Positions 22,391-62,906 of a stretch of 64,000 bases of DNA are shown here, piece after piece. The stretch comes from Aspergillus flavus (Eukaryota > Ascomycota > Eurotiomycetes > Eurotiales > Aspergillaceae): assembly GCF_009017415.1 (NCBI RefSeq), contig NC_092407.1:434001-498000 (forward strand), given 5' to 3'. The notes under the pieces were generated by a model that did no database searches, had not been told where the DNA came from, and worked only from the letters and a program-made list of their open reading frames with translations. The position numbers and the translations under genes were made by a program. How positions within the stretch are numbered: position 1 is the first letter of the stretch; every line of letters begins with the position of its first letter.

Positions 22391-24569
22391 CTACAACACC
22401 CTCAAACCAACAAAGTCAGGCCCGTACGACGTGAATCCACTTTCACCACCCTCGTTTCCGATGACAACGTCATTGTCCCCATCCTTCCAACCCTCAGTGA
22501 GCACCCCTATCGTCGCCGTATCCCACCACCCTTTTCCAGGTCCAAACAACTCACTATGCTGACCACTCAAAGGAACCTCAATTCTGACTGGCTTGTTACC
22601 ATTAACGCTCACAGTCAGGTTCCTAGAGTTGGACCCCCAATCCCAAGCCGAATCAAATGCAACATCGTTATTGATGTAGTCGATCGCCAGATACTTCGTT
22701 CCGGCAGTGGCGGGGATCACAGCCCGAGCTGTGCCGTTCGTACTGATGTTTCCTATCTTAGATCCAACTGGCTGACAATAACCTGCACCACAGGAGACAG
22801 TATCCGCATCTCCGATTGTTGTGAAGGCTGTATTCGGAAAGTATGTGCCATTGGGAGGGGTGATTGTGATCGCGTCGACGGATTGCGGGGACACAATTGT
22901 AATGGAGTTCGATGAGCCAGCCAGTAGGGGTATTTGTGCTGATGCTTCGGTGCCCGATGCAGACACCTGTGCCGTAATGGTCTTATTACTTGCCGTCGAT
23001 TGTATTTTCACATCGCTAGAGGAGCTTGCTTCGGATAGTTTTACTGTGATGTTATACCTGAAACTTGTGGTGACGCCGTAGATCGATTCAAATGTAGTCG
23101 AAGAACTGATAGCAGGGTTAGATCAGCATGAAAGACAAGGCATGCAAGCCATTACTCACCCAGTTGACGTAGCGAACGTATCACCCGGGTATTGACCAGA
23201 AGCTGTGGTATCCTGAAGCTCGAGTAGTATCGTTCCATGTCCCTGAACCTTTGCTGTATAGGAAGTTTTAACATTCTGCGCAGTAGTTCCATCCCAGATA
23301 TTCTTCACTGTGCCGGCATACTGTAAGCCAATATCAGGGAGGTCCAAAGTAAGATCTCTAGATTCGTTCCTCCAATTTATCAAAGCCGCCACGGTACGAC
23401 CACCAGATAGGGGCCCACTCCAAACTTCATAGCCTTCCTCCGTCCAACGTCGCCGGAGACTAGCACTCACACCCAATGAATCCTGGTTGTAACCAATAAT
23501 ATCCGCCTGCTTCAATATCTGTAAGGACTCGTCATTTATAGAAGTCTCATCGTCTTTCAACGCAGCCCCAATAGTCAAGGGACTCTTGAGAATTGCCCAC
23601 AGAGAGAAATGAGTTTGTTCTTCGGGAATAGACAGTATATCGTTGCCCACAAAAAGCATGTCCAAGTCCGGCCATTGTCCAGGTCCAGCAAAGCTGGTTT
23701 GAGGAACAGCTTGGTTCAACGTTCGGTAGATCGCCCTCCAGTGGGGGATAATATCATTGCCGATTCGCCACGAGTGACCGAGCGCGGGTGCCCATCGTGC
23801 TGGGAAATCAATGCCCCATTCACAGACTTGAAATACCATAGAGCGATTTTGTGCTGCGAGGGCGCGCGACATGTTTGCGAATCTTGGCTGCGGTGATGTG
23901 CTCGGTTCGTAGTTTACGTTTGGGTACCCTGTTGCAGCGTCGGAATAGCAGTTGTCGTCTATAATCCCGATGCATTAGTAGTTGGACGGCTGCAGATAGA
24001 AAGGGTAGTGTACATTTTAGAGAGTCAACCTCCCAAGATGCAAAGGTCCTCGCATCCTGATCCTCGTAGTCTATGGAAAGTTATCAGTACTTGAGATCCA
24101 GCTCGTCGAGAAATACATACATAGACTGCCGACATTATCGGGCGGACTGCCGCATAGCTTGATTCCCGAATCCTGATAAACACCGAAAAGAAGGTCGAGG
24201 TCATGAAGGTACTTCCCAAGCGCGGGGAAGCCTTCTGGGAACAAGGTTTCATTCCAAGTCAAGGATCCGTCAGACAGTCGATCCGCAACGGTCCAGCCAC
24301 AGTCAGTAGTGACATATCGATACCCTAGCGAGGCCAATCCTAAATCCACTAAGGCTTGGGCGTTAGAACGCACGATAGTTTCGTTTGGGGAACATGAGTA
24401 GTGATTGTAGGTGTTCCATCTGCATTGTCAGCTTTACTCTATTTATAGGGTTCATCAATCCCTACCCCATCTGAGGCGTCCGTGCGAGCCCATTGTCCAA
24501 CCGCGGTTGGAGATGCGGATGCCCCAGCGCAGCTGGTAGTAAGGACAGATAAAAGATCTTTGGTAACAT
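22391..24569 (-). CDS. aglD: Secreted alpha-galactosidase, GH27 (AglD-like)
   Basis: Hydrolyses terminal alpha-1,6-galactose from galactomannan and raffinose-type sugars outside the cell. Five exons on the minus strand: 24569-24466, 24419-24121, 24070-24014, 23958-23160 and 23105-22391; introns are 46-55 bases and the sum is 658 codons (657 residues), matching long fungal AglD-type enzymes. A signal peptide (MLPKIFYLSLLPAALG) starts it. GH27 signatures: TPQMGWNTYNHY (31-42), TDCGW (73-77), nucleophile Asp155 in SLKYDNC, acid/base Asp222 in WRIGNDI, and GPGQWPDLDML. About 300 C-terminal residues form beta-rich domains (residues about 370-657) ending in GPDFVGLRVL, with several N-glycosylation sequons. 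The symbol is by similarity only. Confidence 0.92.
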
Positions 24570-46223: not shown

Positions 46224-46360
46224 GACAAGTAAATCCTGTCATCAATAACCTCAACAGAGTCACTGCGTGCCTATCTCTTCCACTCATTTCCATCTAAACA
46301 CATTCGCTTTGCCTAGGCTGGTTCCTAATCCATTCATTAACTTCTCTTTCCAACTTCAAA

Positions 46361-47322
46361 ATGAAGCTCTCTTTTCTCGCTCTTGCGGCCATCGCACCCT
46401 TCGTGTCGGCCCATTACTTCTTCGACACCCTCATCGTCGACGGCAAGGAGAGTTCCCCCAACCAATATGTCCGCTCCAACACCCGACCCGCCAAGTACAA
46501 CCCAACCAAATGGGTCAACACCCGCGACGACATGACCCCCGACATGCCTGACTTCCGCTGCAACAAGGGGTCATTCACCTTCGCTGGCCAAACTGGTACG
46601 GCGGAGGTCAAGGCTGGATCCAAGCTTGCCATGAAGCTCGGTGTTGGTGCTACGATGAAGCACCCCGGCCCTGCACTGGTGTATATGTCCAAGGCTCCCA
46701 GCACGGCCAAGACATACCAGGGCGATGGCGACTGGTTCAAGATCTACGAGGAGGGCATCTGTGACAAGAACAAGGACGTGAAAAGTGACGCCTGGTGCTC
46801 TTACGACAAGGATCGGGTTGAGTTTACCATTCCTAAGGATCTGGCCGATGGGGAGTATCTTATTCGGGCGGAACATATCGGTATGTCTTCTGGGTTGTAT
46901 TGGTAAGGAATGGATACTAATTTGGCTTAGGTGTGCATGGTGCACACGCTGGAGAGGCCGAGTTCTATTACGAGTAAGTCCACCTTTCCCATGTCTGTCA
47001 TTGTTCTTGAGGGATTCTGACAAAGCTTTCCAGATGCGCTCAAGTCAAAGTTGTCGGTGGCGGAAATGGAACCCCCGGTCCTACTGTCAAGTTCCCCGGT
47101 GCTTACAAGAAAACTGATCCCTCGTTCACCTACAGTGTTTGGGGTGGCTACAAGGACTATCCCATGCCTGGTCCGCAGGTCTGGACTGGTTCGTCGGGAT
47201 CTAAACACTTCTCGAAGGTTGTTGACGTTAATGCTACCGGTGGTACTTCTTCTCAGGGGAATGCGGCTACTTTCGACGGCAGCTTCACTCGTCGTGAGCA
47301 CGCTCGTGACTTTACCTACTGA
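46361..47322 (+). CDS. Secreted AA9 lytic polysaccharide monooxygenase
   Basis: Copper enzyme that oxidatively cleaves cellulose or hemicellulose chains. Exons 46361-46880, 46931-46973 and 47034-47322 (introns 50 and 60 bases), 283 residues. The 17-residue signal peptide ends VSA and exposes His18 as the mature N-terminal histidine, the first ligand of the copper histidine brace. The second ligand is His101 in MKHPGPALVYMSKAP. AA9 blocks follow: CSYDKDRVEFTIPKDLADGEYLIRAEHIG, GVHGAHAGEAEFYYECAQVKVVGG, and FPGAYKKTDPS. No cellulose-binding domain; the tail is a short Gly/Ser/Thr-rich extension. Confidence 0.94.
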
Positions 47323-49597: not shown

Positions 49598-50828
49598 TTA
49601 ACAAGAAGCACCAGTAGGAACGTTCTCGCACTTGGAGCTAGTCTTACCACCAGTGATGGAAACACCGGACCAGGTCCAGTCAGTGCAGCTGCCAGATCCA
49701 CAGAGAATGTAGATGTCAGTAGCGTCGCTCTCAACGGTACCGGTAACCTTGTCGAAGGTGATATCAGAGACCTTGATACCGTTGGTAGGGGTACCAGTGG
49801 GGCTGCCGTTCTCGTAATCCTGCTCAACGATGAGTCCGTACTTGGTAATACCGGAAAGAGTGATATCCTCGAACTTGACGTTGGAGACGGTACCGGTGGC
49901 ATCGTAGACGGTCTTGATACGGACACCATTCTGGGAGTTGACAACCTTGGAGTTGGAGATGGTCACGTCTTCGACGGTGTTGTCGCTACGACCACCGACC
50001 GAACCGATGGAGAGACCATGGCCACCGTCACAGTAGCCGTTGGTGAAAGTGATGTGCTGCAGGGTATTAGCAGGTGGTCGAAGAATGAAAAGTAAAGAAG
50101 GAATAAAATGTTTTTAACTGGGGTGGTGCTATCTTACCGATCCAGAGTTGATGGCGAGACAGTCATCCTGGTTGTACACGGTGGCACCGTCAATGTTGAT
50201 GTAGGTGCTAGAGCCGACATCGAAGGCGTCGGTGTTGTGGCCCTCTGCGGTACCAGCGGAGTTATCGATGGTAACATCAGTGATGTTCAGGTTGTCCGAC
50301 TGGATGCTGAAGCCCTGGACGGGGGTGTTGTAGATCTGGAGGCCGGTGATGGAAGAGGAGTCCAGCTTGTGGGCGTAGAAGAACTTGGGCTTTGTCTTTC
50401 CACCATTGCCACCCTTGCCATCCCACCAGCGGGATCCGTCTCCGTCAATCTTGGCACCGGATGCCTGTTGGACTTTGATGTTGGTTCCGGACACGGAGAT
50501 GAGAGGACCCTCCCACTCCTTGTAGCCGAAAGTGGTCTCACCCGAGAAGATGACCTAGATATGACTTAGTATACATTAACCAAGAGGAATATGATTAGAT
50601 ATCTATGCATACAGTGGTGCCATCGTTGAGACCGGTCAGATCAAGGGTTTCACCAGCGGGAACCTCGATGTTGCTCAGAGTGATGGTTGAGCAAGAGGTC
50701 TTGCCCGACTTAGCGTCGGCAGCCGAGGTGAAAGTACAGGAGTCGCGGGCTTCGAGTTCTACTGGGACTGCGGCGACCAGCGCAGCGCCGACAGTAGCGG
50801 CAATGACGGAAGATTGAAGAAGCTGCAT
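49598..50828 (-). CDS. Secreted endopolygalacturonase, GH28
   Basis: Cleaves homogalacturonan in pectin. Exons 50828-50613, 50554-50138 and 50056-49598 (introns 58 and 81 bases), 363 residues. A signal peptide (to about residue 20) and short propeptide ending LEAR precede the mature DSCTF start, as in Aspergillus PGs. All GH28 catalytic motifs are present: NTD at 179-181, QDDC with Asp202-Asp203, GHG around His224, and VRIKT. The protein ends in a disulfide-rich tail ([11 protein letters not shown]...GASC), and cysteine spacing matches fungal endo-PGs of the same length. Confidence 0.95.
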
Positions 50829-52665
50829 TTTTCCGAAAGAATGGATAGGGACTTGGTCAACAAGACGCCTTCAAATATGGACTGAAAGAAAGACTAAGGA
50901 ATGGAGGGTTGATGGAGACGATGCTGAGAGAAAGGAAGACATCGTAGGGGTCCAAGACTCTTTTTATGTCCCCTTTCTATCTTGCAATACAACCCGGTGG
51001 AGCAGAATATCTCGTTGGCGGGAGAAAATGTCTGGGATTGAAACAGGTGGCTTGAGTCTAGGCTAAGCTTCCGGTTCGCGTAGGCAAAAAAAGCTTAGCT
51101 GCGATTTCATCCGCCAATCGGCACTGACAATTCATCTACGTTTCTCCCTCAGGTCATCTTAGCATTGATCTATGATATTTATCTCCTTTGTAGCTATCTA
51201 GACCATGTACAATTAACAGAGATGGGGATGGAACATACAGGATTCGACATTTCGGAAGGTTGAAAAGACAGCGATTGAAACAGTAATCCGGGTATGAAAC
51301 GGGACAGCCTTGCCGGACCCTCTGGCGTGATCGGAAAGAGAGTCAGCAGTCTCCGCTCAATCTACGTAATCTGGCCCCAGGCAATAATATTCGACCCCTG
51401 AGCCGATCACTTCCACTTCAATTCAAGTGCCGGAAAAAACTATCCAGATACACGTTCCGAGCAGTGCCGGACTGACCCTGCAAATGCTATGCAATAAGGC
51501 TGCGTTGTGCGATTGGCGGGATTTCTTGAGATGTGTCCATATTATGGGGACTAGATCCTACATATGATACATGGATAAATTAAACTACCTAGATCAATGT
51601 CGGTTACTGACCCTACCTTCGTTGGTGTTTTGACTTGATATCGCTGCCTAACTGCACTTTCGCAGTGCTCCTGTCATCCTCCTGTCTGATTGATGGGTAG
51701 TGATCCAAGCAGCAGGGCTGACGATTCTTCAATCTTTACCTGGCCGTTGCAGTTATTAGCGTCCTAATTTACAGGAACCATGATAGATTATTGGTTCTGA
51801 CCTGATTACTACTGTTTATCCCGTGGAGAAATTTCATCTAATATATATCATATCAACTTAGTTGCCTAGGGCCGTGCGAACGCAAATTATGTACCCCTGA
51901 TGCATATGTGCTATATCACATCGACAGTACATAGTTGTTAAGTGTGTTACTACACTTGTGACTACCTCTGTATGCCGATTATCACTTCAGATACACCAAC
52001 TTGAATAGTAACACGGCCATCAGTCGGTCATACCCTCAGACGGAGCACCCATTTTGGAGTATTAGCCCGCTACCCGACACCCTTCAACCCTCAAAGATTC
52101 AATTCCAAAGGGACTATAACATATTTCACTGTATTCTGTGTCTACCACTAATGAAAAGCTACTCTGCAAAGATTCGCAATTTTCAAATAGCAGGCATGTG
52201 GGGGCCGAGGTTCCGGTAGAAAAGCTATCCACAATCTATCAGAGACTAGACCAAGATATGTGGGCCCTAGATGGTTGTGCAGGCACGCGGATGGTCGATG
52301 CGATACAACTTGAAGTCAAGCTTTGGATCTAATGTGCCCAGCAGGCAGCCCTGAACCTGAAATGAACGTTGCTTCAATAACGCCCCCTACTTTACAACAG
52401 GATCATCAGCTTTGGCTCATTACTCCGGTTGATAAACGCGGAGTAAACCTACATCAGTTGGCAATTTCCGCTCTACCCATTGATGCTAAAGTTAATTGAC
52501 CAGGACGATTACCGAATGGCCTTAACTATATGAGAGTCATCTGACGCTGACCCACGGCTACACATTTAGTACATAAAAGCAGCAGACAACTATGTGAATT
52601 GTGTGTTGGTCACAGCCTAGCTATGTCTCTCTAAACAGGCAGTTCTCAAAAAGCATCGCTCATTA
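50829..52665. other. Long intergenic region
   Basis: About 1.8 kb; the left end is the polygalacturonase promoter. A 64-residue ORF at 52138-52332 has no recognisable family. No repeat identified. Confidence 0.5.
51061..51067 (+). promoter_or_regulatory. GGCTAAG, candidate XlnR/GGCTAR element
   Basis: GGCTAAG lies about 233 bases upstream of the polygalacturonase ATG, matching the GGCTAR pattern bound by XlnR-type activators. Orientation is opposite to the gene; significance is only suggestive. Confidence 0.3.
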
Positions 52666-53842
52666 TCACCTTGCAGCTCTTGTCGCCGTATCAAGGTAAA
52701 TATTATCCAAAAGTTCACCAGCTTCTTCTTCGGACATTCGCAGCTTCAGGTATTTCTGTGGATACAAAGGGCTGTCTGGCAACCATTCATTTCTGCCATC
52801 TGGGTAAATATAGTTATGTCCTCCTTTATTTGCGTAAACAAACATGTTACTTAATCCGTCGATGGCATATAACACGGTAAGGGGATCCCATGAGCTCCGA
52901 GATATGTTGTATCCGCTGTAAGGGTCAGTTAGAAGTGATCGCATTTGTTGAACAGGAAGCTACATACGTGTACCACCGGTAAGCTGCGTTGACTGGGTCA
53001 CTGACAGGGCCCTCTACGGTCAACCGCGCCCCCGAGTAGACGGTCGCCCCAAGTTCACCACCAGAGAATGTCATGGGCCCCGGCCAAGTGTTTACTACAT
53101 GAGCAGTTGCAGAAGCATTGCTGCCGTAGAAATTGTACTCATATCCGCACGGGTATGCTCCGCCCATGATGACGAGTTCTTTCACTTTCGCCTTCACCAG
53201 GCCATGCCCTGAGAGCGAAGAGTATGTATCCCCGGGGGATGAAAGAAGCTCAGAGAGCTGAGAAATATTTAAGCCACTTCTTCAGGTAGCGGGCATTAGC
53301 AAAGTACTCACGTTGTCGAGGAACCCGATACTGGCAATTGTCACACTGTGATCACCCGCTTCAGATAAGAGCTTGCGATACAGCTCGACGGGATCCCACG
53401 CACTACTTACGTCTCCCCATGGCATCGATGCAGCATGTCGCCAGTTGTATGCGACTTTGCTTGCATATTCCCCAAGTTGGTATGACCAGGTGTCGAGGAA
53501 AGTATCATTGGAAAACGGTTGTTTGAGGGCAACTGGAACGTCAGAGTAGCCATAGTACCCGAGAATACTGGAGGCCGCCAAGGCACTATAACTGGACGGA
53601 TAATTGATCATGACGCCTATTGGCGTGGCCATTGGATGGTCACACGCCACCAAAAGAGCGGCTGCGTCGCTGAGGAGAGAGAGTAAGCAACGGGCGGGGA
53701 ATATGAAACGAAAGACCTCAACAAAGACTTACTCAACATCACTAAACAGATCCGTGTCGATAATTAGCTTCGTCGCTGGTATCGATCCAAGCGCCAAAGG
53801 GGCTACGAGTAATGCGACCGTGAATATCCAGCGTGTCCTCAT
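52666..53842 (-). CDS. Secreted inosine-uridine-type nucleoside hydrolase
   Basis: Hydrolyses the N-glycosidic bond of nucleosides to base plus ribose. Exons 53842-53733, 53669-53312, 53257-52968 and 52915-52666 (introns 52-63 bases), 335 residues. The N-terminus is a signal peptide (MRTRWIFTVALLVAPLALG), unusual for cytosolic family members and implying scavenging outside the cell. The calcium-binding motif IIDTDLFSDVDDAAALL has Asp29, Asp31, Asp35, Asp37 and Asp38. IASIGFLDN matches the family's T-x-G-x-x-x-N block, MGGAYPCG is the substrate loop, and SSWDPLTVLYAIDG carries the C-terminal metal Asp. Confidence 0.9.
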
Positions 53843-54719
53843 TCTGACGATGATGAGTCGAGAGATGAGAAACGCACAGGTGGTGGGCAGTTCCTGACTA
53901 TAGTGGACTAGATCGACTACCGTAGTAGTATACACGACGAGCCAGATATTCGGGGCCGGGGAACTCTGTGCGGCTTATATTAGAACCGTGACATATATAT
54001 CAGATCTAATATCAAGTCAGTTCCTACATAAATCTTTAGGAGAATCACAGGCTACCATAGCGTAGAACGGTTGTACGACGAGCCGATAGACCAATTCTTG
54101 TCCGCGTTGGGTTTCTTATGGAAGCTCCGCTATGTTACGAACATTAAGGGACTTTAGTGTTGTCATAGTGATGATGCCTATAAAACCTAATGTTGTAGGT
54201 AAATATACACAACGTCTATGATGTCTGTCCCGCAACTTCCATGGGTGGCTGGCTACCTCGCCCCTTTCTTGTTTCTCTTTCACTTCGCCCTTGTTCTCCT
54301 TTTAGTTTCTTTCCCAACCCACCCCAAGTGCCAAGCGACCAGCTCGACTGCTCCTCATCCATCCGCCATGAACCTAGCCGCGAACTGAATCACGGATCAC
54401 GCTTGGCGTTTCTCAGGCAGGTGCACAACACCTCTTAAGCGGGAAATATTGACTCATTTACGTGGTGTTCTTATAGCTTGCAGACATCTACGCTCTCAAG
54501 TTTGCAGCTCAGCACATTAACCCAGGTGACAAGCTCACGTGTCGAAGCTACAGAGCCCCAATCCCTATCCCTTCAATAACTGCAGACTGTTGGGCTGTAT
54601 CTCCGAACAGTTGATTACCCCTGGTCATTCTATTCAGATCCCGACCAATGGCTTTAGTTCTGGTATAAAACTTCTATGGACTTGCTTTTCTGCTGCTTCA
54701 TAAACCTACTTTCCCAGAC
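53843..54719. other. Intergenic, nothing recognised
   Basis: About 880 bases upstream of the nucleoside hydrolase and downstream of the tRNA synthetase remnant. Short ORFs only. Confidence 0.5.
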
Positions 54720-57222
54720 TTAAGAGTCTGTGCGTTGGCTTGCGACCCAAGCCTCGTGGGCTTTTTTCTGCCGCTCCCAGCCTTTTCTTAACTTTTTGCT
54801 TCTACTTTTGTTTATAGGTTCACCAACTGCGTCTTTCGTCGGCATCCCATCTTCATCCCAAGCGCTAAATTCACTGGTTCGGAACATGTCCAGGTGGCTG
54901 AGCCTTCCCTTTTCCAATCGTTCTTTGGCAAGCTTTTCTTGTTTTTCCTTCTCCTGCTGCTTGAGTAGCATTTTGCGCGCATGTTCTTCGCGAGACTGCA
55001 ATAAATCCCTAGTCACAGGCCTGACTAATGCAGGTTTATTCTCGCGATCTTCAAGATAAATACCAAGGTCAAAGAGCTCAACATCTCGTAATCGATCGCA
55101 CAAGGAAAGCAATTCCTTGGATGACGTTGGTGTGTCTTCCGAGTTACTTGGAGATATCCGGGCGTGGAAATCTCTGAAAACTTGGAAGTATGGCCTGGAC
55201 GCCTGAGATACTAGGCGCTCATCTACAATTGTCTCCGCGGTGATAGCTTTGAGTTGCTGATGCGTTACTTCGCCTTGTGATTTCGTGGCTTCACGCAAGG
55301 CGTCACGCATCGCTGAGAGTGGATAAAGAAATTGTTTTGCCGGTTCGGGGATGTCAGTTCCTTCCCAGCCAATTCCACAGCTCTCAGGGGACACTTTTCC
55401 ATTCAGGCCGAGGATAGTTACAATTCGAGTTACCCACTGGGCTAGTTCTTGCACTTCGTTGGGTTAGCATTTTGGTCGACGTTGTTGAAAGTGGTAATCA
55501 ACTCGGAGATAACGCCCATAACCTTGGGCGTATCGAAAGAGTCACAGAAATATTCGTGGACTTTTTCCTTCGCAGTGGCCAGAGCTTGTGCCAAGGATAT
55601 AATGGGGTCAGATGACCCATCTGTTGCAACGCCCTGGCTAGAAGAATCTTTGACTTTGACGAAAAAGTTGTTAAGCTTATCTTACTACGCGGATGCTGTT
55701 TGAATAAGTTCGGGTGTAATCTCAACCCCATCCCGCCAACCTCCTAGGAGAAAAACAATCCGCAGGCTTCGAGGATTCCAGTCACCCTTGTCAAGGGCAC
55801 TCCGAACAGTGGTAAAGTTCTTCAGTGACTTTGACATTTTTGACCCTTGTATTGACAAATGTCCCATGTGTAGAAAGTAATTCACCCATTGCTGCTTCTT
55901 CTCTGACCAATATGCCTCACTTTGGGCAAGTTCATTATCATGGTGGGGAAATGCAAGATCGATTCCACCAGAGTGGATATCATTTTGGCTCCCTAGTCGG
56001 CTGGAGGCCATTGCAGAACATTCAATATGCCAACCCGGTCGGCCTTGTCCCCATTGGCTCTTCCAACTAGGTTCACCTGGAAGTGATGCTTTCCAAAGGG
56101 CAAAGTCGTCAGGGGACCTTTTTTCGACAGCATGAGATAACGTCCCCTCGCCGTCTCTTTGCAAAGGTTGATTGTTTCTATTCTATGGCTCTAACCGTGC
56201 ATATGGATGCCCGGCCTTCTCGAAACACTTGATATCGAAGTAAACAGAGCCATCCAGCGTCACATAGCCAAAATCATTTGCCACAATTTTCTCCACAAAA
56301 TCTGCAATCTCCTGGCCGTATTCGGTGACTCTTGTTATTTCGTCTGGATCAAGCACATTGAGGTCTCTCATATCGCGCATAAAATGTTCTTCATACTTCT
56401 TCGTGAGTTTTGTGAAAATTTCATACGCATCCCCTGGCACAGTTGAACCTCTGAGCTGGTCAAGGTAAGGAAGGATGACATCCTGAGTTGCCTCATAGAA
56501 AGCTTCACTGGTAATCATCTCATTTTCAAGAGATCTGGGTTGCTCACCAGGTCCCTGACTGAACATCTCGGCTACTCGCGAAATCATTGCAGCTGCAATG
56601 GTAACAGTCCTAACATGCATCCGAACCTTTGCTTCAGCATCTCCAGGTTTCTTGTTGCCCTCTAAAGTCCCTCCCTTTAGAACCCCTCCGTATACCCTTT
56701 TTACTTCGGTTCTAAATTTCTCTGGCTCAGTCTCCTCATCAATCAATCGCAGGTTTTTCTTGATGTAAGCATAATATGCTAGTTGTGTGGTGTTCAGTAC
56801 ATCGGCGTTAACATCCGGATGTGAAGAAAGAAACTCGGAGAATAAATGCTGTTGCCATCCTCGGACAATGATCTAAATAGAGGCCCCCAGGCAGCATATG
56901 AGTCAAACTTGCTAAACAATGAACATGTCCTACCTTATCATCCACGTCGGTAATGTTCATGACAAACTCTACATCAAATTTGAAGTAGTCTTTCAAAATG
57001 CGACGAATGATATCCGTACTGGCGTAATTTCTTGCGTGGCCAAGATGTGCATCATCGTAGACAGTAGGGCCACATGCATACCATGTTACTTTGCGGCCCT
57101 TTGGGTCCAGGGCAATAAAGGGAGTCTTGGATCGGGTCAGAGAGTTCCACACCGTCAGAGGTGAAATTATTCTCTGGATGTGCTTGTGGTTGCCTCCAGG
57201 AAGGCTGTTTGTGGGGATCCAT
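54720..57222 (-). pseudogene. Cysteinyl-tRNA synthetase, disrupted
   Basis: Class I synthetase that charges tRNA-Cys. The full fungal gene of about 800 codons is traceable: zinc and substrate Cys in [14 protein letters not shown]-type [19 protein letters not shown], a 70-base-range intron, long insertion, [31 protein letters not shown] motif [10 protein letters not shown], then the C-terminal helical region and basic tail ending 54720. Yet the gene is broken. TAG at 56183-56185 replaces Trp (ARLEP-stop-NRNN); TAG and TAA sit side by side at 55682-55687; a one-base loss at about 55454 shifts the frame; and the N-terminal [12 protein letters not shown] is out of frame with [10 protein letters not shown] (shift near 57150-57175). 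All catalytic motifs remain intact, so decay is recent, or the copy is a duplicate. Confidence 0.85.
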
Positions 57223-58006
57223 GGCAATCCACGATAAGGAGAGTATGGAGGTTTCGAGTTGGTTGTGGTGAGAACACATATGTGGTCGGCCGTGACAACT
57301 AGGGATGCCCCGCCTCAAGGGAAATATGTACTATGCCCATTACGGAAGGGTTTTTGTCGAGGTCCACTCCACGGTGAGCGACCGTAAAACTGTAGGCATG
57401 TCAGGACTCTCACTTGAAAGTATGACGTGATCATAAATAAGTAGAGCATCAAAATACTACATAGCATTACTTCAAGAGTGGGTATATGCACCAAAGCTCA
57501 TCTCATACCATTGAGGAATTTCAAGACAGTCTATATGCATGTGGGAATGTGAAAGGACATTGAGTTTCATTGATAGATTCGGAACTCCTCGAGGATGCTT
57601 GACGATCTTCGGTGTTAGGCGTCAGTTTCTGCATTAACATTCAGATCAAAGTACAAGTGGTGGAACCTCAAGTCACTCATTATGAGGCCCAATCGGGAAT
57701 AACGCACTAAGCCACACCGATAAGAATGACAGTTTTGGTTCCTGTGGCTCCCCGGAGTCAGTGACGTTGAATCCCCGCGAATTGTTGCGGGCGGTGACTT
57801 TCCCGCGGTTCCAGCTATTGATGCCTTGAGCTCAGCCATCTCACTGCTTCCTTCTCTCCACAACGATTTGAACTTAGTAATAGCTTAATTTGGCTTCCTA
57901 TATAACTCTTCTTTCGACGGACTGGTTATTGTTTATGAGTTGCTCGTTTGTCTCGGATTCTTAGATTGCCAGGGCTGCCTTGCCCTGCCTCCGGTCTCCC
58001 AGCACC
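57223..58006. other. Divergent intergenic region
   Basis: About 780 bases between the synthetase remnant and the sorting nexin; holds the nexin promoter. No gene. Confidence 0.55.
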
Positions 58007-60217
58007 ATGTGGAACGACGAGGATAACAATCCATACGGCGCATTTGATCCCGAAGCCCGTCTCTCCGAATCCTTACATTCGGCGAACCTTTCTCCAAGTA
58101 AGGCTCACTGCTCAATTCATTGGCGCGGAGTCTAACCTTTGCAAGCTCTCTACGAACGCGAATACACTCCTCCCTCCCCCTCCAGCAAGGCGTCAACCCA
58201 GGATCCGACCGACGATTACCTTTCACATCCGCAGGATTTTAGCGATGAGGAAAATGAAGGATATGACAGCCAGCCCGCCAGCCATGGCTACTACCGGAAG
58301 AGCACCTACGATAGCCGCATAGAACAAATACTTTATGAGAACCCGGAGATGCCGATCCTCATCACCGATGCCGGGAAGAACCATGAGGGTGGTGGAAGCT
58401 TTATCGTGTACACCATACGAACTGGAGTATGTTATGATGCATCTCGGAGAGCATTTACAGATTTGACTCACATATGCAGGATCTGGAAGTCCGGCGACGG
58501 TACTCTGAGTTCGCCTCTCTGCGACAGACTCTCGTCAACCTCCATCCCACACTCATCATTCCGCCCATCCCGGAGAAACATACAATGGCGGATTATGCCG
58601 CTAAGCCTACCAAGGCTAAGGAGGATACCGCAATAATTGAGCTCCGAAAGCGAATGCTGGCTGTCTTCTTGAACCGCTGTCGCCGAATGAAGGAAGTCCG
58701 TGAGGACGGCGTTTGGTGGAGATTCCTAGATCCTAATGTTAGCTGGGTATGTATTCAGCGAGCACCTGCGAGCTCGACGCTCAAATGCTGATTTATGTAT
58801 AGAGTGAGGTTCTTCATTCTCACCCCGCATCTTCGGTACCCAAGAACAACTTGAAAGCACCTCCCCTAGACCCTGCCAACCCTACGGCCGCACACGCCTG
58901 GCTACCGGTACCATCTTCTTCCGCGAAGCTCAAGGGTACTTCTGGTCCTACAGCTTCGGCTGCGCCTCCCCCAGTGGACACGCCAAGTCCCGATGTTCTA
59001 GGGCGCTTCCCTCCGGAATCCCGCAAATTGAGCGAGCAAGAGTTGGACCCGTATTTCATCAACTTCGAGGCATCTACAAGGGAGCTTGAGCTGCTACTGC
59101 AAGGGAATATTGAGAAAGTCAATCGTCGAACAGTGTCACATTTGTCTTCATTGTCAGCGGACCTCATGGAACTTGGAGCACGATACAATGGCTTCTCTCT
59201 ATCCGAACAATCACCCACAGTAGCCGCAGCGATTGAGCGAATTGGCCAGGCAGCAGACACATCTTACATCGAAACTGAGGAGCTCTCCAACGCATTAAGC
59301 GCAAGCTTTGCCGAGCCTATGAGGGAAAGCGCACAGTTCGCTAGCGTTGTTCGTAGTGTTCTACGTTACCGGGTGCTGAAACGGGTGCAGGAAGAAATGA
59401 CAAGGGATGAGTTAGCGAAGAAGAAGACCTTGCTTGATTCTCTGGAACGGAGCGAGTTGGAAGCAAAGCGTATTGAACAGTACCTGAATCGGACGTCAGC
59501 TCAAGGATCAGGGACGAGATCGCAACGCTCCTTATCTACATCTTCCGCTACCAGCGGCCCGGGAAGTCATGGAGCAGATGTGCGCCCCAGTGGTCAGGAA
59601 GACACTACCTCTATCGATTCAGACTTTCCTCCTACCCACGGCGAGTCGATCGGCTCGCAAGCGTCGTTACCCGCAGCATCTCCATCGAGAAGGCCCGAGA
59701 CATCCTCCTCTCCAGCACATCGGAAGTCAGCCAGCGGGACATTCATGACGAACAAGTTGTTTGGGCGTATCAGTCACGCGGTCCACGGGTTCGTTGATGT
59801 TGACCCGGAGAGGACGCGACGAGATCAAATTGGAAAAACAAAGGAGAGTTTGCTTCAGGTGAGTCTAGCGACACTCCATTTTTAATTTCATGATCATCCT
59901 TGCCCCCTTCCCCTATATCTATTTTGCTAATATATTATGCACAGTTGGAGCAAGCACTGGAGGTTTCGGAAAAGGACGTTAAAGACGCCAGCACGGGGGT
60001 CTTGCAGGACTTGAAGCGATTCCAGAAGGATAAGGAGGCTGATCTGCGACGTTACATGGTAAGGAGCGACAAATGCAACCCATGGTTGAGGGAAACACTA
60101 ATATTGAGATATTTTCTGTAGGTCGCATATGCTCGATGCCATTTGGACTGGGCCCGGAAAAACCTGGAGACATGGACCGAGGCGAAGGATGAAGTGGACA
60201 AGATCGTCGTCCGCTAG
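58007..60217 (+). CDS. snx41: Sorting nexin SNX41/ATG20-like (PX and BAR domains)
   Basis: Endosomal membrane-sorting protein of the Snx4-41/Atg20 complex, acting in retrieval from endosomes and selective autophagy. Six exons: 58007-58097, 58146-58426, 58480-58746, 58803-59858, 59945-60058 and 60122-60217; 635 codons (634 residues). The N-terminus MWNDEDNNPYGAFD is distinctive. The PX domain (about 85-215) has the phosphoinositide site VRRRYSEFASLRQTL and HPTLIIPPIPEK, with RMLAVFLNRC. The BAR-like helical region runs from about residue 275 to the end, interrupted by a long Ser/Gly/Pro-rich insert (about 420-510). It ends with helix CHLDWARKNLETWTEAKDEV. Likely constitutive; not part of the neighbouring carbohydrate genes. 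Confidence 0.92.
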
Positions 60218-61607
60218 TCCCCTTGTAGTGTGCGAGGTTATGGCTTTTATCTTTACATCGGGCCTTTTGTTCCCCCGGTAATCACACTCAGAGAGTGAGA
60301 CTACCCGGCGTTGGTGGATTTCTAATTATATGTTCCATGAGCTCTACCTTGATGTATGATTGATTGATATTGGGCGCAATGATTGTCCTCTATTTTAGAT
60401 CGACCGAAAATCCGTTGATCATTTTGCAGATCAGTCATCCCTCGGAGGCGATGTTGTCAAATGTAGCCTCATCGATCCACCCCCTACCGAATTACAGTAG
60501 AATTCGAAGCGATAGATGTTGTATATTCTATTTTGTTGTTTCTTGCGGGCGCCATCCAACAGTAGAGTGGCAAGCCGCACATGATATACGCTACCCTATT
60601 TATTTCCATGGTTGCGTTCCGCATGGAATCTCATACATCAATTCAGGCACCCGCCCATAAAGATCTTCAGACCATTTACTAGATAAAGCTGCAGCTCTTA
60701 TGTGTCCGGGAAGCAGTGCGCATCAATGGATGAGTCAAATTTTTAAAGTCCGGAGCAAGGAGACGGCTCCACTTCGTGAGGCAATTATGGGAGAAGCATC
60801 CCTTATGCGAACGTCGAAACTCTCGGTGATCACCAACGCCGACGTTACTATATTAGTAAGTGCATTGCCTTTCTGCAATCGTTTGAGTGATGTCGTAATT
60901 CCCTCTAGAGTGGTTCCAGTGCGGGTTTTCTCCTTTCCTCCCAGGGATTACGCAAGAGTTACAACCGATGAACATCTCGGTAAGAAGTCCCGTACATACA
61001 CCTTCTCCCTAAACATGATACTAATCCAGGTTACCCGTGGCGATCATCCGTGTTGATCTGTCATGGACGTATGAGCGTATCCCCTGCCTATCCACGAACT
61101 CCAGGATCGACAGGGACCTGGACTTTTCCATCGGTGTCTGAATTTGGGCCTCCCTTGGAGCTATCCACTACCGGTTGCGGGTACCTTTCTGGCGCCAAGG
61201 CCCCACACCCCAGTGTTTATAGCCTGTTTGTTGTCTTGGAAGCTTCGCCAGGTTGTTTGGGAACGGAGTTACGCATTACCGATTATCCACTGAATAGTTT
61301 CCTATCGGAGTAAACTGTTGCTGATCCTGTTATTCTAGACTAGGGATGCTGCGCCCCTGGGGGCTTCCGGGCGACCCTGAGAGGCTATGTGACGCTGCTA
61401 TACTTCCTGTTCTCTCGCACAACCAAGAAAAGAACTAGGAGAGAGAAAAAAAAAATAAATCAAAAAAGAAATTATGGGGACGAGTCCCCCGGCCGCAGAC
61501 GAGGAGCTTGCTGGGGGGCTCCATTTATTAGCATGCTATCTCTCGTAACCAGCCTGAACACTGCTGGACTTGATACCAAATGGTTGTCCGATCGTGGTTT
61601 TATTAAT
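60218..61607. other. Intergenic with an A-rich tract
   Basis: About 1.4 kb. A tract around 61437-61471 is almost all A and G with long A runs. Short ORFs only. The GH43 promoter is at the right end. Confidence 0.5.
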
Positions 61608-62906
61608 ATGGTCCTCGTCGCGACATTATTCTCTCTTTTCACGGTCTCTTTATGCAGGAGCATACCGCGTTCTAGTCCTTCGTCTTCCCCCTACACACAA
61701 GCTACCGACCTAAAAATCCATGACCCGACTGTCATCAACGCTAATGGCGCCTACTATGCTTATGGTGTGGGAGAACACATCGTTATTCATCAAGCACCTG
61801 GCCTAGCCGGACCGTGGAAGCAGATCGGAAGTGTCCTGGACAAGGACAGCATCATCCCCAAAGGCGACCGTGCAAAACCCTGGGCACCAACAACTATCGA
61901 AGTTAAGGGTACCTTCTATTGTTATTACTCAGTCAGCAACGCCGGCTGTCGCGACAGCGCTATCGGTGTAGCTACATCACAATCACCAGGTCCAGGCGGA
62001 TGGACAGATCACGGGGCTATTGTCCAATCGGGCACAGGACAGGGTTCGGACGAGCATCCATTCAATGAAGTAAATGCCATTGACCCTGCAGTTCTGGTCA
62101 CTGGAGATAAAGGACATTTGGTTTTCGGCAGTTATTGGTCTGGAATATGGCAGGTCCCATTGAATGAGGACTTCAGTTCGGTCGGCAACACCACTGGACT
62201 CAATGCGCATCATCTAGCAAAGCATCCGAAGACTGAGCGAGTAAACTCACAAGATCAAAACCCCGATCCTCTCTGCCGGGATTCATCCGGTCGCCGTCCG
62301 GTTGAGGGTGCTTATATCTCTTACCACGCACCGTACTACTATCTCTGGCTGAGCTGGGGCCAGTGCTGCGATTATGACCCCAACAACCTTCCACCATCAG
62401 GTGAAGAGTAAGTCCTGCTGGCATTTTACTCGATCCCCCTATGCTTTATGGGCACTCTAGTGCTCAGTGCTGATTTGACAACGGTTCATGCTAACAATAA
62501 CATAGATATAGTATCCGCGTCGGACGCTCTGAGAGCCCTCACGGTCCGTTCGTAGACAAACAAGGGAAAGAGCTCACCCAGGGCGGAGGAGAACTCATCT
62601 ATGGCTCAAATAATGACGTCTACGCACCGGGAGGACAAGGAGTGATAACAGTGGAGACTGGAGATATTCTTTATTATCATTACTGTGAGTCCCTGTTCTT
62701 CCGTGGGCTTTCCGTTATTATATAGTACGGTAAGCTAACCAGCACAGTAAACACAACTCTCAGCTATGATTTCTGGGTAAGGCCTCGAACCATCTCTAAG
62801 CCTCTCATATCATGTCACATTGCTAATGTCTCAATAGGAAGCCCGACTGGGATATAGTTATCTGGGATATGTCGATGGTTGGCCCGTCATACGGGAAGCA
62901 CCCTGA
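61608..62906 (+). CDS. Secreted endo-1,5-alpha-L-arabinanase, GH43
   Basis: Degrades pectic arabinan side chains. Exons 61608-62407, 62506-62684, 62748-62776 and 62838-62906 (introns 98, 63 and 61 bases), 358 residues. The ATG at 61608 gives a good signal peptide ([16 protein letters not shown]); earlier in-frame ATGs would bury it. GH43 five-blade propeller motifs: [17 protein letters not shown] (general base Asp), [27 protein letters not shown] (pKa modulator Asp), and [23 protein letters not shown], with the acid Glu. The end [19 protein letters not shown] is typical of fungal arabinanases. A second TATAA-free promoter lies upstream. Confidence 0.92.

Follow-up and report, generated by a model that had tools for sequence, protein, structure and literature searches.

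A broken second cysteinyl-tRNA synthetase gene in Aspergillus flavus, probably a recently dead and redundant paralogue

The gene at 54720..57222 on the minus strand of the Aspergillus flavus DNA analyzed here (the window, a stretch of 64,000 nucleotides at C3:434001-498000 in a 37.7-Mb genome with 8 contigs) is the relic of a cysteinyl-tRNA synthetase (CysRS) gene and not a working one. The Eurotiales sequences sampled fall into two CysRS clades, and A. flavus carries an intact clade A gene on another contig and a broken clade B gene in the window. We consider with high confidence that the window gene is a recently dead copy of this old second CysRS, redundant with the intact one. Since an intact CysRS lies on contig C6, the seeming contradiction of an essential gene being broken is resolved: the essential function rests on the other gene, and the window shows ordinary gene decay.

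Results

The broken copy encodes a complete CysRS in pieces, from a candidate start codon at 57222 to a terminal stop at 54720, and aligns with the intact copy end to end. Three of the five pieces match the CysRS catalytic domain PF01406 in Pfam (E = 5e-58, 9e-13 and 1.3e-21). Three stops and two frameshifts leave it without an open reading frame for the whole enzyme. Frameshift 1 lies near the N-terminus, in a weakly conserved stretch, and is placed at 57165..57168 only approximately, the alignment not fixing the exact site. The remainder of exon 1 (56934..57164), with the HLGH motif and the first zinc-ligand column, is followed by a 61-nt GT-AG intron (56873..56933), which is not a lesion and whose position is common to the intact copy, where the intron is 76 nt long. 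A premature TAG stands at 56183..56185, and a double stop is formed by a TAG at 55685..55687 and the adjoining TAA at 55682..55684. Frameshift 2 falls at about 55460 (55459..55463, again approximate), beyond which the C-terminal part is open with 246 sense codons and the terminal stop (54720..55460). At neither frameshift is there a base run longer than three.

HLGH, KMSKS and the four zinc-ligand columns are retained, as judged by inspecting the columns aligned to E. coli CysRS (1li5) and its zinc ligands. The sequence-only reading had described a CysRS gene with three stops, two frameshifts and intact catalytic motifs, its frame destroyed at four or more places; the minus-strand coordinates, Pfam matches and alignments bear this out, with five lesions and with the extra break at 56933-56873 explained as the intron. 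Chance resemblance is excluded by the identity of 496 of 795 aligned residues to the intact copy (62%) and of 722 of 808 (89%) to the A. pseudotamarii protein P0001.

An intact CysRS, for which a search of the genome had been proposed, is found at C6:3696013-3693517, open over 806 aa with its single intron. A profile search of the full genome places PF01406-type domains at three loci, namely the open gene on C6, the window copy on C3 and a locus on C2 that fits the MetRS-type family PF09334 better than the CysRS domain; a protein search of the genome returns C6 and C3 only. The C6 gene adjoins a gene for a GCD14-type tRNA methyltransferase subunit. An in-frame upstream start in the C6 copy would add 38 residues with seven R/K and no D/E, an extension that resembles a mitochondrial signal in its composition. 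According to the passage on CRS1 in PMC9604717, this single yeast gene yields both the cytosolic and the mitochondrial CysRS forms. Because of the signal-like extension and the yeast precedent in that passage, the C6 copy probably serves both cytosol and mitochondrion. The in-frame upstream start of the broken copy would extend it by 19 residues, among them no R/K and one D/E. The suggestion that loss of a duplicated or organelle-shared synthetase would be unusual thus holds in part: "organelle-shared" fits the 38-residue extension, and "unusual" is unsupported because the lost gene is an extra paralogue. Third-codon-position G+C is lower in the broken copy (0.46) than in the intact one (0.61), which may reflect past lower expression of the former.

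Among the best 120 of 7989 matches listed by the homologue search, the closest to the broken copy is P0001 of A. pseudotamarii (818 aa; 88% along the full query); next come A. ellipticus and A. niger, both at 71%, then A. aculeatinus (69%), P. hispanicum (67%) and an 807-aa protein (66%). Within section Flavi, A. pseudotamarii alone has a whole protein more than 80% identical among these best 120 of 7989 matches, and A. oryzae has no entry by name among the matches listed, these 120 included. Whole-protein annotations of clade B genes exist in A. pseudotamarii, A. niger and its relatives, Penicillium hispanicum and Paecilomyces variotii. Two CysRS each are present among the matches listed for P. 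hispanicum (P0006 and P0019) and Paecilomyces variotii (P0007 and P0011).

Three trees were built from rows chosen by hand, not at random: a first with 46 of the best 120 listed rows and the two A. flavus copies, a second with 25 of those 46, both copies and two incomplete lichen-fungus rows, and a final one with 25 rows and both copies (27 in all), rooted on four Onygenales rows. In the 27-row tree, clade B holds 10 rows (bootstrap/SH-aLRT 100/100) and Eurotiales clade A 13 rows (99/97), P. hispanicum and Paecilomyces variotii have one CysRS in each clade, and the broken copy groups with A. pseudotamarii at 100/99. Of 15 signature columns, 14 are B-like and none A-like in the broken copy, and all 15 are A-like and none B-like in the intact copy. 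On these alignments and trees, the broken copy is a member of a separate, old paralogue clade. With the Onygenales rooting of the 27-row tree, the duplication apparently predates the split of the sampled Eurotiales. Its depth is less sure than clade B itself, because in the tree whose outgroup was the long lichen-fungus branch the base was not resolved and the Arthroderma uncinatum CysRS P0120 grouped with clade B. P0120 lies on a long branch, is B-like in 6 and A-like in 3 of the 15 signature columns and is slightly nearer clade A in overall identity; it falls outside clade B in the first tree and was excluded from the final one as a long branch. It may be a clade B gene retained in dermatophytes or a long-branch error.

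In a second reading, some Eurotiales would retain clade B for a separate task rather than for general tRNA charging. Another compartment, a growth stage or the production of cysteine persulfide, which is a CysRS activity, would be examples of such a task, and A. flavus would be just losing it, with some lesions varying between strains and the double stop becoming an intron. We regard this reading as improbable.

The loss seems recent, because both the end branch of the broken copy and its changes at invariant columns are about those of its intact orthologue P0001. The end branches in the 27-row tree are 0.062 and 0.058, respectively. Of 227 columns that do not vary among the 46 other rows, three differ in the broken copy and four in P0001, with one column affected in both; of 301 columns fixed in the 11 other clade B rows, 8 and 10 differ, respectively. 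Private changes amount to 29 in the broken copy and 21 in P0001, with 36 undecided. These comparisons give no sign of long relaxed selection on the broken copy. Estimates of the time since death by mutational opportunity are 0.006 (missense), 0.010 (all events) and 0.027-0.031 (stops) changes per site, a roughly five-fold difference, and assume 0.1 indels per substitution. At least three stops among six events have a probability of 0.07-0.08 under neutral decay. As a sign of continued use, the excess of stops over missense changes is not significant, neither for stops alone (0.07-0.08) nor with the shifts included (0.17-0.18).

Three public A. flavus models cover the lesions. P0092 (499 aa, from NRRL3357) begins downstream of frameshift 1 and lacks both stop sites, and its last residues are exactly those read from the window in the shifted frame after frameshift 2. 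P0119 (531 aa), most of which matches the window, omits the first stop as well as a segment running from the double stop past frameshift 2; skipping of the 39-nt stretch 56157..56195, which removes the first stop, is consistent with this model. P0239 (414 aa; cluster of 10 sequences) starts after the first stop, agrees with P0092 in its joint at the double stop and runs straight across frameshift 2. As far as protein models tell, the lesions are probably real and shared with other A. flavus sequences; since P0239 reads across it, frameshift 2 is, by the same models, perhaps absent in that strain and a lesion that varies between strains. P0119 and P0239 carry the name cysteinyl-tRNA synthetase though spliced around the lesions of the window copy.

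The shared joint would result from removal of a 48-nt stretch (55638..55685, minus strand), a multiple of three whose 5' end is overlapped by the double stop. It has GT-AG ends, starting with GTAAGA and ending with TAG, and contains CTTAAC, which resembles the fungal branch site consensus; the joint may be either a gene-finder patch or a new intron. If the double stop were spliced out in this way, the gene could be partly used for an internally shortened protein, as the intron-like features, the presence of the joint in models of two A. flavus clusters and the barely altered conserved columns would allow; taken alone, the substitution pattern is compatible with continued function of the broken copy. 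However, frameshift 1, the first stop and frameshift 2 would remain, the 39-nt bypass of the first stop is short and occurs in one model only, and the three models dodge the lesions in three different ways, as is typical of gene finders on pseudogenes. Partial use of the gene is therefore quite unlikely.

Still less likely is an intact gene with clustered sequencing or assembly errors, which the sequence-only reading had offered beside decay with a second copy. The otherwise well conserved frame and the straight passage of P0239 across frameshift 2 speak for such errors. On the other hand, P0092, which comes from NRRL3357 and from a contig of 5100955 nt as against 5196380 nt for that of the window, reproduces the exact shifted residues, and P0092 and P0239 share one joint at the double stop. 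Because other A. flavus models end or splice at the lesions and base runs longer than three are absent at the frameshifts, this half of the earlier proposal is unlikely, while the other half is supported by the intact CysRS on C6.

A processed pseudogene or a copy killed by repeat-induced point mutation (RIP) is very hard to credit: TAG accounts for two of the three stops, which speaks in its favour, but the intron is retained, identity to the other copy is just 62%, and TpA/ApT (0.61) and (CpA+TpG)/(ApC+GpT) (1.41) are close to the values in the intact coding sequence (0.60 and 1.33), both indices of the broken copy lying outside the range usually taken for RIP, for which the first would be high and the second low.

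The window also holds plant-cell-wall or sugar-cleaving families, namely AA9, GH28, GH43 and alpha-galactosidase, at 46298-46903, 50132-50494, 61344-62408 and 23159-23974. Of the 41 remaining open stretches of at least 130 aa, 28 were compared with Pfam together with one further piece, and none showed PKS, NRPS or similar core domains. A role as a self-resistance synthetase in a biosynthetic cluster finds no support, no adjacent core genes being present among the stretches examined. No RNA families reach the gathering threshold in 50000-62000.

Discussion

We propose that clade A would cover cytosol and mitochondrion via alternative starts, and that this dual service would have rendered clade B dispensable. 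A disabling mutation would then have been tolerated in the lineage of A. flavus; the later stops and shifts would have accumulated by neutral drift, and one of these lesions may still vary between strains. The decay of a redundant CysRS copy is ordinary in kind and not very surprising. What is of interest beyond this is the role of clade B where it is retained, and the models spliced around lesions. The locus points to a second CysRS clade in Eurotiales that has drawn little notice, is patchy in its presence and is caught during loss in A. flavus; none of the literature titles searched concerns a second CysRS in Aspergillus. It also gives a warning, as two public A. flavus models that go by the name cysteinyl-tRNA synthetase have been spliced around the lesions of a probable pseudogene.

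The canonical fungal CysRS of clade A, represented by the C6 gene, resembles the broken copy in domain, motifs, length class and intron position, with 62% identity, whereas the broken copy falls in a distinct old clade, has five disabling lesions and is without the mitochondrial-signal-like extension. Its nearest relative among the best 120 of 7989 matches, the 818-aa clade B CysRS of A. pseudotamarii (P0001), is annotated whole, while the A. flavus copy is broken. The retained intron, the intact paralogue elsewhere and the stops and shifts are shared with duplicated (non-processed) pseudogenes. The difference from these is that the duplication here is old, apparently near the base of the Eurotiales in the 27-row tree, and the death of the copy recent.
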